A stretch of DNA of 44,574 bases, taken from NCBI GenBank assembly GCA_027066325.1, contig JAMONY010000023.1, forward strand, positions 1-44,574. The letters run 5' to 3'. The stretch is from Helicobacteraceae bacterium (GTDB lineage Bacteria; Campylobacterota; Campylobacteria; Campylobacterales; Sulfurimonadaceae). A model generated the notes under the pieces. That model was not told the origin of the DNA. It searched no databases and worked only from the letters and a program-made list of their open reading frames with translations. A program made the translations under genes and the position numbers. Of this stretch, positions 12,895-20,646 are shown piece by piece (the stretch's first letter is position 1; each line of letters begins with the position of its first letter).

Positions 12895-14616
12895 ATGAAC
12901 TCATACGGCAGCGACGCTTTTCTACCAACAACTCCCAAAGAGGTTGAGGAGCGTGGCTGGAGTAAACTCGATATTATCCTTATCAGTGGTGACTCATATA
13001 TAGACTCACCATACATCGGAGTAGCTGTTGTTGGGCGTATATTGGAGCGTGAGGGTTACAGAGTAGGCATCATAGCCCAGCCAGATATAGATAGTGCTGA
13101 TGATATCACAAGACTTGGTGAGCCATCTATGTGGTGGGGTGTGAGTGGTGGCAGTATCGACTCTATGGTTGCAAACTATACCGCTACTAAGAAGTTTAGA
13201 AATAGTGATGACTACACCCCTGGCGGTAAAAATAGCAGACGACCAGATCGTGCAGTACTAGTCTATACTAACCTAATACGCAGGCACTTTAAAAATACTG
13301 TCCCTATTGTGCTTGGAGGCATTGAGGCTAGTTTGCGTCGCGTAACACACTATGACTACTGGTCAAACAAACTTAGAAAGCCCATACTTTTTGATGCAAA
13401 GGCAGACTATCTTGTGTATGGTATGGGGGAGCTAACCCTTATAGATCTAGCTTCTGCTATAAAGAGTGGAGGTGATGCTAGAGATGTGCGCGGTCTATGT
13501 TATATCTCAAAAGATGCAAAAGGTGAGTACATAGAGCTGCCATCACATCAAGAGTGTCTGCAAGATAAAGAGAGATATATAGATCTTTTTGACCTATTTT
13601 ACGATAACAATGACCCTATATCTGCGCGTGGTCTATCTCAAGCTGTAGATAGCAGGTACCTTATCCAAAATCCTCCACATGACTATCTTGATGAGGAGCA
13701 GATGGATAGCGTTGCGGCTCTACCGTACACAAGAGAGCTACACCCATACTATGCCAAATACGGTAAAGTGAAATGTTTAGAGACTATCAAATTCTCTATT
13801 ACAACTCATCAAGGGTGTTGGGGAGAGTGCAACTTTTGTGCCATTGGAGTGCATCAAGGACGCACAATTCGCACAAGAAGTGAGGATTCAATAGTAGCAG
13901 AAGCAGCCCAATTCAATAACTATAGAGACTTTAGAGGTATCATTAGTGATGTGGGTGGACCAACTGCCAATATGTACGGTTATGAGTGTGGTAAAAAACT
14001 TAAAGCTGGTACATGTGATGATAAAAAGTGTACAGATGCAACAGCGCTATGTTCTGCTATGAAGGTGGATCATTCAAGAAATATCAACTTGTTAAAACGC
14101 GTGCGATCTGTAGATGGTGTTAGAAAAGCTTTTGTAGCTTCAGGTGTGAGGTATGATCTGATCATAAAAGATAAAAGATCTGGATATGAGTACCTAAAAG
14201 AGCTGGTAAAACATCACATATCTGGTCAGATGAAAGTGGCACCTGAGCACACACAGCCTCACATTTTAGAGCTCATGAATAAGCCAAATCAGCAAACATT
14301 GATAGAATTTAAAAAACTTTATGATAAACTTAACGCTAGAGAACAAAAAAAGCAGTTTTTGACATACTATCTTATAGCAGCTCATCCAGGTTGCGAAGAG
14401 AGTGATATGCATGAGCTAAAGAGGTTCACTACAGATGAGCTACATATCAATGTAGAGCAGGCGCAGGTCTTTACACCTACTCCTAGCACATACTCATCAG
14501 TTATGTACTATACGCAGATGAATCCTCAAACTAGAGAGAAGATATTTGTAGAGAAAGATAGTGCAAAAAAAGAGAGACAGAAGAGCATAGTAGTCAAAAA
14601 GCACCAAGGAGGTTAG
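12895..14616 (+). CDS. YgiQ-family radical SAM protein
   Basis: A 573-residue member of the YgiQ family. The N-terminal B12-binding-like region (DIILISGDSYIDSPYIGVAV) precedes the radical SAM core with C308-x3-C312-x2-C315 in HQGCWGECNFCAI, and the conserved SDVGGPTANMYG and KVAPEHTQ segments follow. The [4Fe-4S] cluster would cleave SAM to a radical; the reaction of the family is unknown. Length is near 600, as usual, though the C-terminal tail is trimmed. Its last codons carry a strong AAGGAGG that serves the next gene. Confidence 0.9.
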   Translation: MNSYGSDAFLPTTPKEVEERGWSKLDIILISGDSYIDSPYIGVAVVGRILEREGYRVGIIAQPDIDSADDITRLGEPSMWWGVSGGSIDSMVANYTATKKFRNSDDYTPGGKNSRRPDRAVLVYTNLIRRHFKNTVPIVLGGIEASLRRVTHYDYWSNKLRKPILFDAKADYLVYGMGELTLIDLASAIKSGGDARDVRGLCYISKDAKGEYIELPSHQECLQDKERYIDLFDLFYDNNDPISARGLSQAVDSRYLIQNPPHDYLDEEQMDSVAALPYTRELHPYYAKYGKVKCLETIKFSITTHQGCWGECNFCAIGVHQGRTIRTRSEDSIVAEAAQFNNYRDFRGIISDVGGPTANMYGYECGKKLKAGTCDDKKCTDATALCSAMKVDHSRNINLLKRVRSVDGVRKAFVASGVRYDLIIKDKRSGYEYLKELVKHHISGQMKVAPEHTQPHILELMNKPNQQTLIEFKKLYDKLNAREQKKQFLTYYLIAAHPGCEESDMHELKRFTTDELHINVEQAQVFTPTPSTYSSVMYYTQMNPQTREKIFVEKDSAKKERQKSIVVKKHQGG

Positions 14617-14617
14617 A

Positions 14618-16036
14618 GTGGGTCTGTTTTCAAAGATATTTAACAAAAGTTCTAAAGATACTCAAAAATCGATGCAAAATAGTGACAACAGAGCAGAACC
14701 AGTCAAACTATCAGCATCAAAATTTAACCTAAATAACACTTTAAGAGATGTTGCGAATGTTCTAGCACCTATGGCTTTAGAGAAGAAGATATCTATCATC
14801 TATAGGGTCAACAAAGATGTTCCATCTATCATTATAGGCGATAGATATAAGCTTACAACTCTTCTAAGTGAACTCATAGGCAATGCGATAGACTTTTCAG
14901 ATAAAAAAGAGAGCATAACGGTCAATATCAGAAGAAATGCAGACAATGTAGATGCACTTGAGCTTCACTTTAGTATCACCGATAGGGGTGTGGGCATATC
15001 AGAGCAAGCACTCAATGATGTGATAACTCCTATGTTGCGTAGCGACCTTAAGGCTTCAGAGTTTGGCATAGAGGGTAGTGGTCTTGTGCGTGCACGCGAG
15101 ATTGTACATGCCATGTTTGGAAGCATCACTATGAGCTGCGATCTTGATAGAGGGTGTATTGTATCGTTTTATGTGCTGCTTAGTACTCCAGATATCAAAG
15201 AGAGAAGGCACTATAGGCTACCATCAAAAGATGGCATAGCGCTACAGAGCCTAATCATAGATGAAGACCACGGCACAGCCAATGCACTTGAGTCGATGCT
15301 GGAGTACTTCCAACACAGTGTCACTCAGGCTCATGATGTAGATATAGACTCTTTTGAGGATTTTGATCTGCTCTTTGTCTGTGCATACATGCTTGATGAG
15401 TCTATGAAAGAGAGGCTAAGTGCTTTGCGTACTAGCCAAAGTGGAGTCAAGATAGTCATCATAGAGGAGATGATGAACGACTCATCGGATGCTCAAGAGA
15501 TACTAGAGTTATCAGATTGGCTACTCTATAAACCAACAACACAACAGTTTGTATTTGAGATGCTTAGTGCCCTCTACCCATCTAAACCAACAAGTGAAGA
15601 GATTAAGGGCGTAGAAGGTGAAGAGAGTGTCTCTAAAGATGTTGAGCAGTTCTTAGGCTCAGACAATAGCGTAGCGATATTTGACCAAGAGATGGGTTTG
15701 AGGCTATATGAGAATAACTATACTAAACTTGCAGATACCCTTAAAGATATCATCTGGAAATATGTCAAAGTTGATAAAAAGATCCTCTCTTTAGCCTCAC
15801 ATGAGGAGTATCTTAAACTCTCAGAGCTATGCGATGAGCTTCATAAGAGATTGGAGCCAGTGGGTGCGATCAGACTAGCGCAGTTGGCGCTTATGATCAA
15901 GAGTGCATCTGAGAGATTTAAAGTTGCTGATGTTGAGAGTTTAAGCTCCATATTTTCTCCTATTTTAGCACAGACTATAACAGCCTTTGATAGTTTTATG
16001 GAAGAGAACAAATATAAGATAGACGATGCGACTTGA
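14618..16036 (+). CDS. Degenerate hybrid-kinase-like protein (HATPase + pseudo-receiver + pseudo-HPt)
   Basis: A 472-residue protein starting with GTG 6 nt after AAGGAGG. After a Ser/Lys-rich head, residues 38-190 form a GHKL ATPase domain with N-box ELIGNAIDFSD (Asn89), G1 box DRGVGIS and G2-like GSGL. Residues 208-318 look like a CheY-type receiver: the acidic pair (D215/D217) and Lys305 are present, but the phospho-Asp position holds Cys255 (FDLLFVCAYM) and the Thr/Ser position holds Glu. Residues 350-465 resemble an HPt four-helix bundle, but the phospho-His position is Asp406. There is no DHp/His-box, PAS or membrane segment. So ATP may bind, but no usual phospho-acceptor exists. A signalling scaffold is possible; the role is unknown. 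Confidence 0.75.
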   Translation: MGLFSKIFNKSSKDTQKSMQNSDNRAEPVKLSASKFNLNNTLRDVANVLAPMALEKKISIIYRVNKDVPSIIIGDRYKLTTLLSELIGNAIDFSDKKESITVNIRRNADNVDALELHFSITDRGVGISEQALNDVITPMLRSDLKASEFGIEGSGLVRAREIVHAMFGSITMSCDLDRGCIVSFYVLLSTPDIKERRHYRLPSKDGIALQSLIIDEDHGTANALESMLEYFQHSVTQAHDVDIDSFEDFDLLFVCAYMLDESMKERLSALRTSQSGVKIVIIEEMMNDSSDAQEILELSDWLLYKPTTQQFVFEMLSALYPSKPTSEEIKGVEGEESVSKDVEQFLGSDNSVAIFDQEMGLRLYENNYTKLADTLKDIIWKYVKVDKKILSLASHEEYLKLSELCDELHKRLEPVGAIRLAQLALMIKSASERFKVADVESLSSIFSPILAQTITAFDSFMEENKYKIDDAT

Positions 16037-16274
16037 TAAGTTTATAAACGCTACCAACATTACAAAAAGACGCTCTATAGCACAAGATATGATTAAAAAT
16101 AGTGTTGTTAGTATAAATTCAAAAGTTGCTAAGGCCAGTAAAAATGTAGAGATTGGAGATACTATCACGGTAGCATATCTTAAAGGAGATAAGAGCTATA
16201 GAGTCTTGAAAATTCCCACTACAAAATCGACACCAAAATCACTACAACATGAGTACATTGAGGAGATAGAGTGA
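16026..16274 (+). CDS. S4-domain RNA-binding protein (RqcP/Hsp15-like)
   Basis: An 82-residue protein that is almost only an S4 domain: MRLDKFINATNITKRRSIAQ, then SINSKVAKASKNVEIGDTITV. Small S4 proteins of this kind (Bacillus RqcP, E. coli Hsp15) bind stalled 50S-peptidyl-tRNA complexes in ribosome quality control; which of the two it resembles in function is not decided. Campylobacter jejuni has an S4 gene just upstream of its tsaE-lptB pair, so the neighbourhood is conserved, with trpD inserted here. Overlaps the gene before by 11 nt and trpD by 4 nt. Confidence 0.85.
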   Translation: MRLDKFINATNITKRRSIAQDMIKNSVVSINSKVAKASKNVEIGDTITVAYLKGDKSYRVLKIPTTKSTPKSLQHEYIEEIE

Positions 16275-17257
16275 ATTTTATAGAGGCAAAGGAGGCGTTT
16301 GAGAGGCTCTTTGCAGAGCAGATGAGTCAAGATCAGATGAGAGAGTTTCTTTTAGAGATGAGACTTGATGAGACTTTAGAAGCACAGACTATAGCAGCCG
16401 CTGCTGAGGTGATGAGCTCTTATGCTCTCATGTTAGATATCAGAGCAGATCTTAAAGACTCTTTGATAGACATAGTAGGCACAGGAGGTGATAAGAGTGG
16501 AAGTTTTAACATCTCAACTACAACGGCCATATTGGTAGCGAGTGCTAATCTTTATGTGGCAAAACATGGCAATCGATCTATCACCTCAAAATCTGGCTCT
16601 GCTGACCTACTAGAGACTCTAGGGATTAGACTTGATCTTAGTAGATCGCAGAGTTCTGTTATGTTAGAAGAGTGTGGATTTGTTTTTATGTTTGCCCAAA
16701 ACCACCATCCAAGCATGAGGCATATTATGCCCATACGCAAATCGATAGATCAGAAGAGCATCTTCAATATCTTAGGACCATTAACTAATCCAGCTGGTGT
16801 TAAGAGGTATCTATTGGGTGTGTTTGATGCAGGGTTTGTGCGCAAGATGGCAGAGGCACTCTTGATCAATGGTGCACTAAAAGCCATGGTAGTTAGCTCA
16901 GCAGACGGTATGGATGAGATATCTATAAGTAGCACAACTCACGCTGCTATATTGGAGGATGATCAGATAAGAGAGTTTGAGATAGACCCTCTGCTTTATG
17001 GCATAAAACTAGCTCCATTTGAGGCAATACTTGGATCTAGCGCGGAGCAAAATGCCTCTATATTATTAGATATTTTTAACAACAGGGCTACAGATGCACA
17101 GCGTGATATAGTACTTATCAATAGCGCAGCAGCTTTTATAAGTGCTGGTGTTGCACGCGACATGCAAGATGGTCTTGAGATTGCAAAAGAGATGCTACTT
17201 AGTGGCAAGGCGCGCGATAAGCTAGAGCAGATTAGGAGTATCTCATCAAAACTGTAG
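16271..17257 (+). CDS. trpD: Anthranilate phosphoribosyltransferase TrpD
   Basis: A 328-residue TrpD, second step of the tryptophan branch: joins PRPP and anthranilate. Motifs are DIVGTGGDKSGSFNIST (PRPP site, from about residue 67), HGNRSITSKSGSADLLE and FNILGPLTNPAG. The anthranilate-site region around NHHPSMRH is also normal. GTG start, overlapping the S4 gene stop as GTGA. It is separated from other trp genes, none of which are in the window, and sits in a mixed operon, so attenuation by tryptophan is not expected here and none was seen. Confidence 0.94.
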   Translation: MNFIEAKEAFERLFAEQMSQDQMREFLLEMRLDETLEAQTIAAAAEVMSSYALMLDIRADLKDSLIDIVGTGGDKSGSFNISTTTAILVASANLYVAKHGNRSITSKSGSADLLETLGIRLDLSRSQSSVMLEECGFVFMFAQNHHPSMRHIMPIRKSIDQKSIFNILGPLTNPAGVKRYLLGVFDAGFVRKMAEALLINGALKAMVVSSADGMDEISISSTTHAAILEDDQIREFEIDPLLYGIKLAPFEAILGSSAEQNASILLDIFNNRATDAQRDIVLINSAAAFISAGVARDMQDGLEIAKEMLLSGKARDKLEQIRSISSKL

Positions 17258-19863: not shown

Positions 19864-20646
19864 ATGTATCTTCGTATTAAGTCCTTTGTAGAGCATGGTC
19901 TATTTGCAAAGTTTATCATATGGCTCATTATTATCAATGGCATTATCTTGGGTCTAGCAACATCAAAGACTCTTATGGGCTCTTATGGCGATATGTTGTC
20001 ATTTTTAGATAACGCTATTGTGGCAATTTTTACCGTTGAGATACTGTTGCGTATCTATGTCTATAGAGTGGCATTTTTTAAAGATCCTTGGAGTCTATTT
20101 GACTTTTTTGTTGTTGCTATATCTCTTATACCTATCAATGATGGACTCTCTATATTGCGTGCGTTACGCGTATTGCGTCTTTTTCGACTTCTTACCATAG
20201 TGCCACAAATGCGCACCATTATTGCAGCACTTGTAAAAGTTATACCAGGTATTGGCTCCATATCTATGGTAGTACTACTCTTTTTCTATGTCTTCTCTAT
20301 CATGGCAACAACGCTTTTTGGTGAAGATTTTCCAATCTGGTTTGGCGATCTTGGTAAGTCTATGTATACACTCTTTCAAGTTATGACTCTTGAGAGCTGG
20401 TCTATGGGAATTTCACGACCTGTTATGGAGACTTTTGAGTACGCTTGGGTCTTTTTTATCATATTTATACTCATAGTGACTTTTATCATGATTAATCTAT
20501 TTGTAGGTATTATAGTAGATGCTATATTTACCATCAAAGAGGATGAGAAGCAGAAAAATCAAGATAGCACAAAAGAGGTTACTTTAGAGTCTTTACAGAG
20601 TGAGATAGCTGAACTAAAAGAGATCTTATTGAGGACAAAACACTAA
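19864..20646 (+). CDS. Bacterial voltage-gated sodium channel (NavAb/NaChBac family)
   Basis: A 260-residue single-domain six-helix channel that should assemble as a tetramer. The selectivity filter TLESWSM at residues 175-181 is identical in sequence and numbering to Arcobacter butzleri NavAb, including Glu177 that sets Na+ selectivity. The S4 sensor has four regularly spaced Arg (R99, R102, R105, R108) and S3 carries the charge-paired Asp in [11 protein letters not shown]. The C-terminus is a coiled coil ([14 protein letters not shown]) that holds the tetramer. Homologues such as NaChBac influence pH homeostasis and flagellar motility. It is followed 1 nt later by an ABC-F gene and may be co-transcribed. 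Confidence 0.96.

Follow-up and report, generated by a model that had tools for sequence, protein, structure and literature searches.

A conserved relative of BarA-type hybrid kinases without a DHp domain or phospho-acceptors in a member of the Sulfurimonadaceae

Pseudo-receivers and pseudo-histidine kinases have been described, although they are not common. The phospho-acceptor His is reported to be missing from 0.9% each of the HisKA and Hpt domains, and the acceptor Asp from 2.0% of receivers (PMC12632262). Among the described systems, the kinase fold of DivL has been turned into a sensor of DivK~P (PMC4211667), and RetS acts on the BarA-type kinase GacS (PMC5992135). Here we describe pHK, a relative of the BarA-type hybrid kinases that lacks both a DHp domain and phospho-acceptors, encoded in a stretch of 44,574 nucleotides (the window) from a Helicobacteraceae bacterium of the family Sulfurimonadaceae. 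Each of the degenerate domains of pHK is, taken alone, of a known kind (PMC12632262); a DHp-less protein that unites a CA domain with a pseudo-receiver and a pseudo-HPt was not found in searches of the open-access literature, nor was the lineage to which it belongs.

The pHK gene (14618 to 16036, + strand) encodes 472 residues in an intact reading frame. It begins with a GTG one nucleotide past the stop codon of a YgiQ-family radical SAM gene (12895 to 14616, +; TIGR03904, 3e-236), and a likely ribosome-binding site, AAGGAGG (14606 to 14612, +), lies 5 nt upstream of the start. At its other end the gene overlaps by 11 bases (16026 to 16036, +) the start of an S4-domain (Hsp15-like) gene (16026 to 16274, +), which is followed by trpD, encoding anthranilate phosphoribosyltransferase (16271 to 17257, +; TIGR01245, 1e-97). 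The synteny of all three neighbors is conserved. The methyltransferase and YgiQ genes are adjacent in the window, and the corresponding interval in the complete congeners holds extra genes (L038:4641-7116; the first of 398 aa). The window also carries a gene for a voltage-gated sodium channel (19864 to 20646, +), with NavAb as its closest PDB match (1e-94).

The order of domains in pHK is CA (HATPase_c), receiver fold and HPt-type bundle. The initial annotation had recognized these three folds in one frame, and the analysis bears this out, with CA identified by Pfam, the receiver by a PDB profile search and the HPt by hhalign. Residues 357-656 of BarA, which span CA and the receiver-like domain that comes next, align colinearly with pHK residues 27-326 (1.3e-33, NCBIfam). 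The CA domain is preceded by a short, basic N-terminus (residues 1-26; 14618 to 14695, +) that opens with a conserved M-x-[LFI]-F-x-K. These 26 residues are too few for a DHp domain, and Pfam detected no HisKA in pHK, in agreement with the earlier statement that a His-containing dimerization domain is missing. An amphipathic N-terminal helix was considered and rejected, as the hydrophobic moment did not exceed that of shuffled sequences. The AlphaFold model built from the single sequence was unusable (pLDDT 36.7, pTM 0.26), and the assignment of folds in pHK is thus based on sequence homology. Of the features of a hybrid histidine kinase, pHK possesses the HATPase_c/CA domain and lacks the acceptor His of DHp/HisKA and the acceptor Asp of the receiver. 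It does have the properties of a pseudo-histidine kinase, being kinase-derived, having lost one or more functions and being maintained by selection (no acceptor His; dN/dS of 0.089 between congeners).

The CA domain (residues 27-190; 14696 to 15187, +) has matches to histidine kinases in the PDB, and HATPase_c (PF02518) matches residues 74-187 at 3e-15 in Pfam. The initial annotation described its ATP-binding boxes as kept, which holds for the N-box Asn and for the G1 and G2 boxes but not for two other positions. In the N-box (N89 to D92; 14882 to 14893, +) Asn is present in 9/9 members of the pHK sub-family, while the Lys of catalytic relatives is found in 0/9 and is replaced by Asp (Asp92 in pHK) or Ala. 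The F-box Phe is Ile in pHK and Ile or Leu across the nine homologues. The D, G and G of the G1 box (D122-R-G-V-G126; 14981 to 14995, +) and the G, G and L of the G2 box (G153-S-G155-L156; 15074 to 15085, +) are invariant, so that N89, D122, G124, G126, G153 and G155 are shared by all nine. The ATP site is non-canonical at the N-box Lys and the F-box Phe. From the conserved motifs we infer that pHK retains nucleotide binding, and catalysis of His phosphorylation appears unlikely; the changes in the N-box and F-box could also mean that ATP binding has been lost.

The pseudo-receiver (residues 207-322; 15236 to 15583, +) retains the acidic pair D215/D217 and the Lys, K305. A profile of residues 206-322 together with nine homologous segments yielded PDB matches that were almost all receivers, the best at 1.7e-5. 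The middle domain alone falls under the Pfam cut-off (Response_reg, E 0.028), and hhalign gave no significant match between it and 21 receivers from the same set of genomes (probability 4.8%); it is the PDB profile search, not the hhalign comparison, that settles the fold. Cys255 (15380 to 15382, +) stands at the acceptor-Asp column, as the initial annotation had stated, and the T/S position corresponds to about Glu283. The domain thus agrees with the published description of a pseudo-receiver, a receiver recognized by profile in which Asp and T/S are replaced while the D pair and K are kept (PMC12632262).

Such a domain might bind a small molecule and pHK might relay this signal, as ShkA does with c-di-GMP and CikA with quinones. 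Pseudo-receivers behind CA are widespread input domains (PMC7010744; PMC12632262), the PDB matches of pHK include ShkA (6qrj), via the CA domain, and the pseudo-receiver evolves under strong constraint (dN/dS 0.049). However, the ShkA pseudo-receiver controls the DHp of its own protein, which pHK does not have, and the neighboring genes do not suggest a ligand. A putative role as ligand sensor is given little credence here.

The C-terminal domain is a helical bundle (pseudo-HPt, residues 355-472; 15680 to 16033, +). Pfam found no match in the pHK domain alone; its Hpt family matches 2/5 homologues, the best at 1e-4. These 118 residues nonetheless align over nearly their full length with the HPt domains of related kinases in hhalign (1.4e-11), and with His-containing HPts only at 5e-5, compared with 0.3-0.6 for unrelated profile controls. 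The domain is therefore homologous to the HPt four-helix bundle and lacks the phosphotransfer His, whose column is occupied by Asp406 (15833 to 15835, +), again as first annotated. A weak match to Dps (0.01) in the PDB search with the HPt profile was taken as chance.

Conservation of pHK was followed in a sample of eight genomes of the genus, including the window genome (1.69 Mb, 99.9% complete). The protein is present in 6/8. Four complete congeners carry orthologues that are 43-44% identical overall and 47-48% identical over the first ~325 residues, with the same neighbors, and a fifth (G050) carries the first 200 residues before its contig ends. In the other two (G061 and G056) the contig ended or was damaged at the site, and G056 was left out of the counts as an apparent assembly problem. 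With ~39% G+C, the window genome is both richer in A+T and smaller than the complete congeners (2.5-2.6 Mb, 57% G+C at the locus; window 14616-16026 compared with L038-L041). Two genomes of the sister genus encode longer versions of pHK with an extra receiver.

The initial annotation had proposed to check whether Cys255 and Asp406 are conserved; as residues they are not. The eight sequences that extend to the receiver column have C, S, T or P there, and never Asp (0/8); at the HPt column D, V, S or M is found, and His in one homologue, that of G012. A normal acceptor at these columns, which the initial annotation would have taken as a sign of local decay, is limited to this single HPt His. The His in G012 and the Asp carried by the extra receiver in two homologues point to a stepwise loss of acceptors, in which the HPt His was probably lost later than the receiver Asp. 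Between two congeners, dN/dS was 0.089 for pHK as a whole, within or near the 0.020-0.110 range of the neighboring genes, and 0.040, 0.049 and 0.084 for CA, pseudo-receiver and pseudo-HPt, respectively. As the absence of acceptors is common to the homologues and purifying selection is strong, local decay is unlikely and a role outside of phosphorelay is favored. The selection for such a role proposed in the initial annotation is thus supported in part, with the caveat that acceptor loss is incomplete across the homologues; the first observation as a whole is confirmed, and the interpretation placed on it is partly supported.

A more restricted form of decay would have pHK functional with a partner in the relatives and slowly degenerating in the window genome following loss of that partner. 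The window genome does lack the partner gene, and the pseudo-HPt (34% identity) and the linker, which is much shorter, are the most diverged parts of its pHK. On the other hand, the frame is intact, the gene sits closely packed in its operon behind a good ribosome-binding site, the CA motifs are intact, and a relative-rate test showed the window copy to be evolving not significantly faster than a congener copy (p 0.11-1.0). We consider this course of events unlikely, while allowing it some weight.

The partner in question is a hybrid kinase of about 695-897 aa, encoded by a gene of ~2.1-2.7 kb that lies directly 3' of pHK in four complete congeners and both sister-genus genomes. Where complete, it consists of an N-terminal extracytoplasmic-type domain, a TM, a DHp-like region, CA, two receivers and an HPt. 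Its DHp His column is Glu or Gln, or Arg in one weakly aligned case; the first receiver is degenerate, the second is canonical in every relative read, and the HPt His is present in four genomes and missing from three. The sites left for phosphorylation in this protein are the second receiver and, in some cases, the HPt. The window genome has no such gene at this place, and the best matches elsewhere are ~33% identical and represent other proteins. Since the pair is present in the sister genus, loss of the partner in the window lineage would be the simpler history, and the retention of pHK without it indicates that the pair is not indispensable. The initial annotation had described the gene as not lying beside a response regulator; the lack of a signaling neighbor is true of the window genome but not of the congeners and sister genus.

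The presence of this kinase also bears on two further readings. The remaining neighbors in the window (YgiQ, the S4 protein, trpD, a TsaE-like gene and lptB) could be taken to indicate a GHKL-type ATPase outside of two-component signaling, tied to the surrounding translation and envelope genes. The nearest relatives and the usual neighbor of pHK are, however, hybrid kinases, and other genera place a DHp-His hybrid kinase at the same spot before S4-trpD, making this explanation highly improbable. Alternatively, pHK could be one half of a putative split kinase, its CA domain phosphorylating a His of another protein in trans in the manner of CheA4 and CheA3. Split kinases exist (PMC3591291), the N, G1 and G2 motifs of CA are kept under strong selection, and a complete hybrid kinase with both DHp His and HPt His is encoded on contig C11 of the window genome. 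Against this, the N-box Lys is missing in 9/9 homologues, the F-box Phe is missing as well, and the co-encoded partner of the relatives has no DHp His, so that the pair itself is unlikely to work as a split kinase. The case for catalysis in trans by pHK is therefore regarded as very doubtful.

The window genome encodes two other proteins with related domains. One (C62; L091:16678-18438, +) has 586 aa and consists of an extracytoplasmic-type N-terminal domain, a TM, a canonical receiver and an HPt in which His is replaced by Leu; it has orthologues in 8/8 genomes of the genus, all without the HPt His. The second (C73; L089:4709-6337, -) has 542 aa in the order TM-CA-pseudoREC-REC, with no DHp and a degenerate ATP site, and C73-like proteins in G050 and G061 bring this type to three genomes. 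The idea that these two represent the lost partner split in two was ruled out, as they are separate genes in congeners (C62 in all 8, the C73 type in three).

Placing pHK among its relatives suggests a broader pattern. In a tree of 49 proteins built from the CA and pseudo-receiver region, with the DHp column excluded, a single change divides the proteins, with no exceptions, into those that have the DHp His and those that lack it, and this split holds when the two long C73 rows are removed. In an earlier tree that included two more distant kinases from the window genome, the His-less proteins also fell on one side of a 99/99 branch. A single loss of the DHp His is the most economical reading of these trees, not proof. 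The His-less side comprises the pHK sub-family, its partners, the hybrid kinases of genus g8 and proteins of about 720 aa from a different family, f6, so that pHK represents a single branch within a broader lineage of such pseudo hybrid kinases. At the S4-trpD locus, other genera of the family carry a hybrid kinase in the same place: those of g6 and g5 have a normal DHp His, and in g8 it is Gly, Asp or Asn. The f6 proteins (L126, L127, L129, L130, L133-L135, L139-L141) are about 650-760 aa in length, have Glu in place of the DHp His and have lost the N-box Asn; their second receiver is canonical, and the HPt His is Leu, Ile, Val or Phe within a conserved motif. By sequence they are a family of pseudo hybrid kinases. 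As proteins were sampled by similarity, the extent of the His-less lineage is a lower bound.

We propose as the most likely reading, with a probability of roughly 0.4, that pHK arose from a BarA-type hybrid kinase and is now a pseudokinase, a conserved regulatory subunit that cannot be phosphorylated and docks on partner signaling proteins. Conservation of the pair of pHK and hybrid kinase in two genera speaks for this proposal. pHK would bind nucleotide with no His phosphorylation, and its CA and pseudo-receiver surfaces would dock on partner signaling proteins; once docked, it may modulate or read the phosphorylation of the partner's intact second receiver, comparable to DivL with DivK~P or RetS with GacS. 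For pHK of the relatives, the probable partner is the pseudo hybrid kinase encoded next to it. A partner in the window genome would have to act in trans, with C73, C62 and the C11 kinase as candidates by kinship only. Putative work of pHK in a two-component network without phosphorylation is supported by one line of evidence, the kinase encoded beside it in relatives.

For the lineage as a whole, we tentatively suggest that, in this bacterial order, a BarA-type lineage underwent a single loss of the DHp His and that its members were kept as signaling scaffolds with the second receiver as main remaining acceptor, with many losing the HPt His as well and some losing the Asn for ATP binding. pHK would be the extreme member, acceptor-less and with an ATP site, acting by protein contact; taken in its entirety, this model is possible but less than even odds would be given for it. 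One traceable lineage shows the stages, from DHp-His kinases through His-less kinases and HPt-His-less kinases to an acceptor-less, DHp-less protein, and several of these stages share one syntenic place, partly encoded as pairs. If this is right, it becomes possible to test in what order and to what end the acceptors were lost.

A comparison of pHK with described systems shows partial likeness to several. Like DivL, the pseudo-histidine kinase of Caulobacter, pHK has a kinase fold without a phospho-acceptor His; unlike DivL, which possesses PAS domains and a Tyr-bearing DHp that docks DivK, it has no DHp and carries a pseudo-receiver and a pseudo-HPt in addition. RetS is likewise a relative of hybrid kinases that is unable to autophosphorylate and acts on a BarA-type kinase, but it keeps the DHp His and receiver Asp and is missing the G boxes, the reverse of pHK. 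RcsD also derives from a hybrid kinase and combines an inactive HATPase with a receiver-like ABL domain and an HPt; it sits in the membrane and has an HPt that carries out phosphotransfer, whereas pHK has lost the HPt His and kept the CA motifs. ShkA and other pseudo-receiver kinases share with pHK a pseudo-receiver directly behind CA, yet ShkA also contains a DHp, and its second receiver is active (PMC7010744). CheA4 also contains a kinase ATP-binding domain without a phospho-acceptor of its own, but it belongs to the CheA class and its partner CheA3 bears the His (PMC3591291), while the usual partner of pHK has no DHp His. With the BarA/GacS-type kinases pHK shares the colinear CA and receiver-like domain and the C-terminal position of the HPt; it differs from them in having no sensor, DHp, second receiver, HPt His or N-box Lys.
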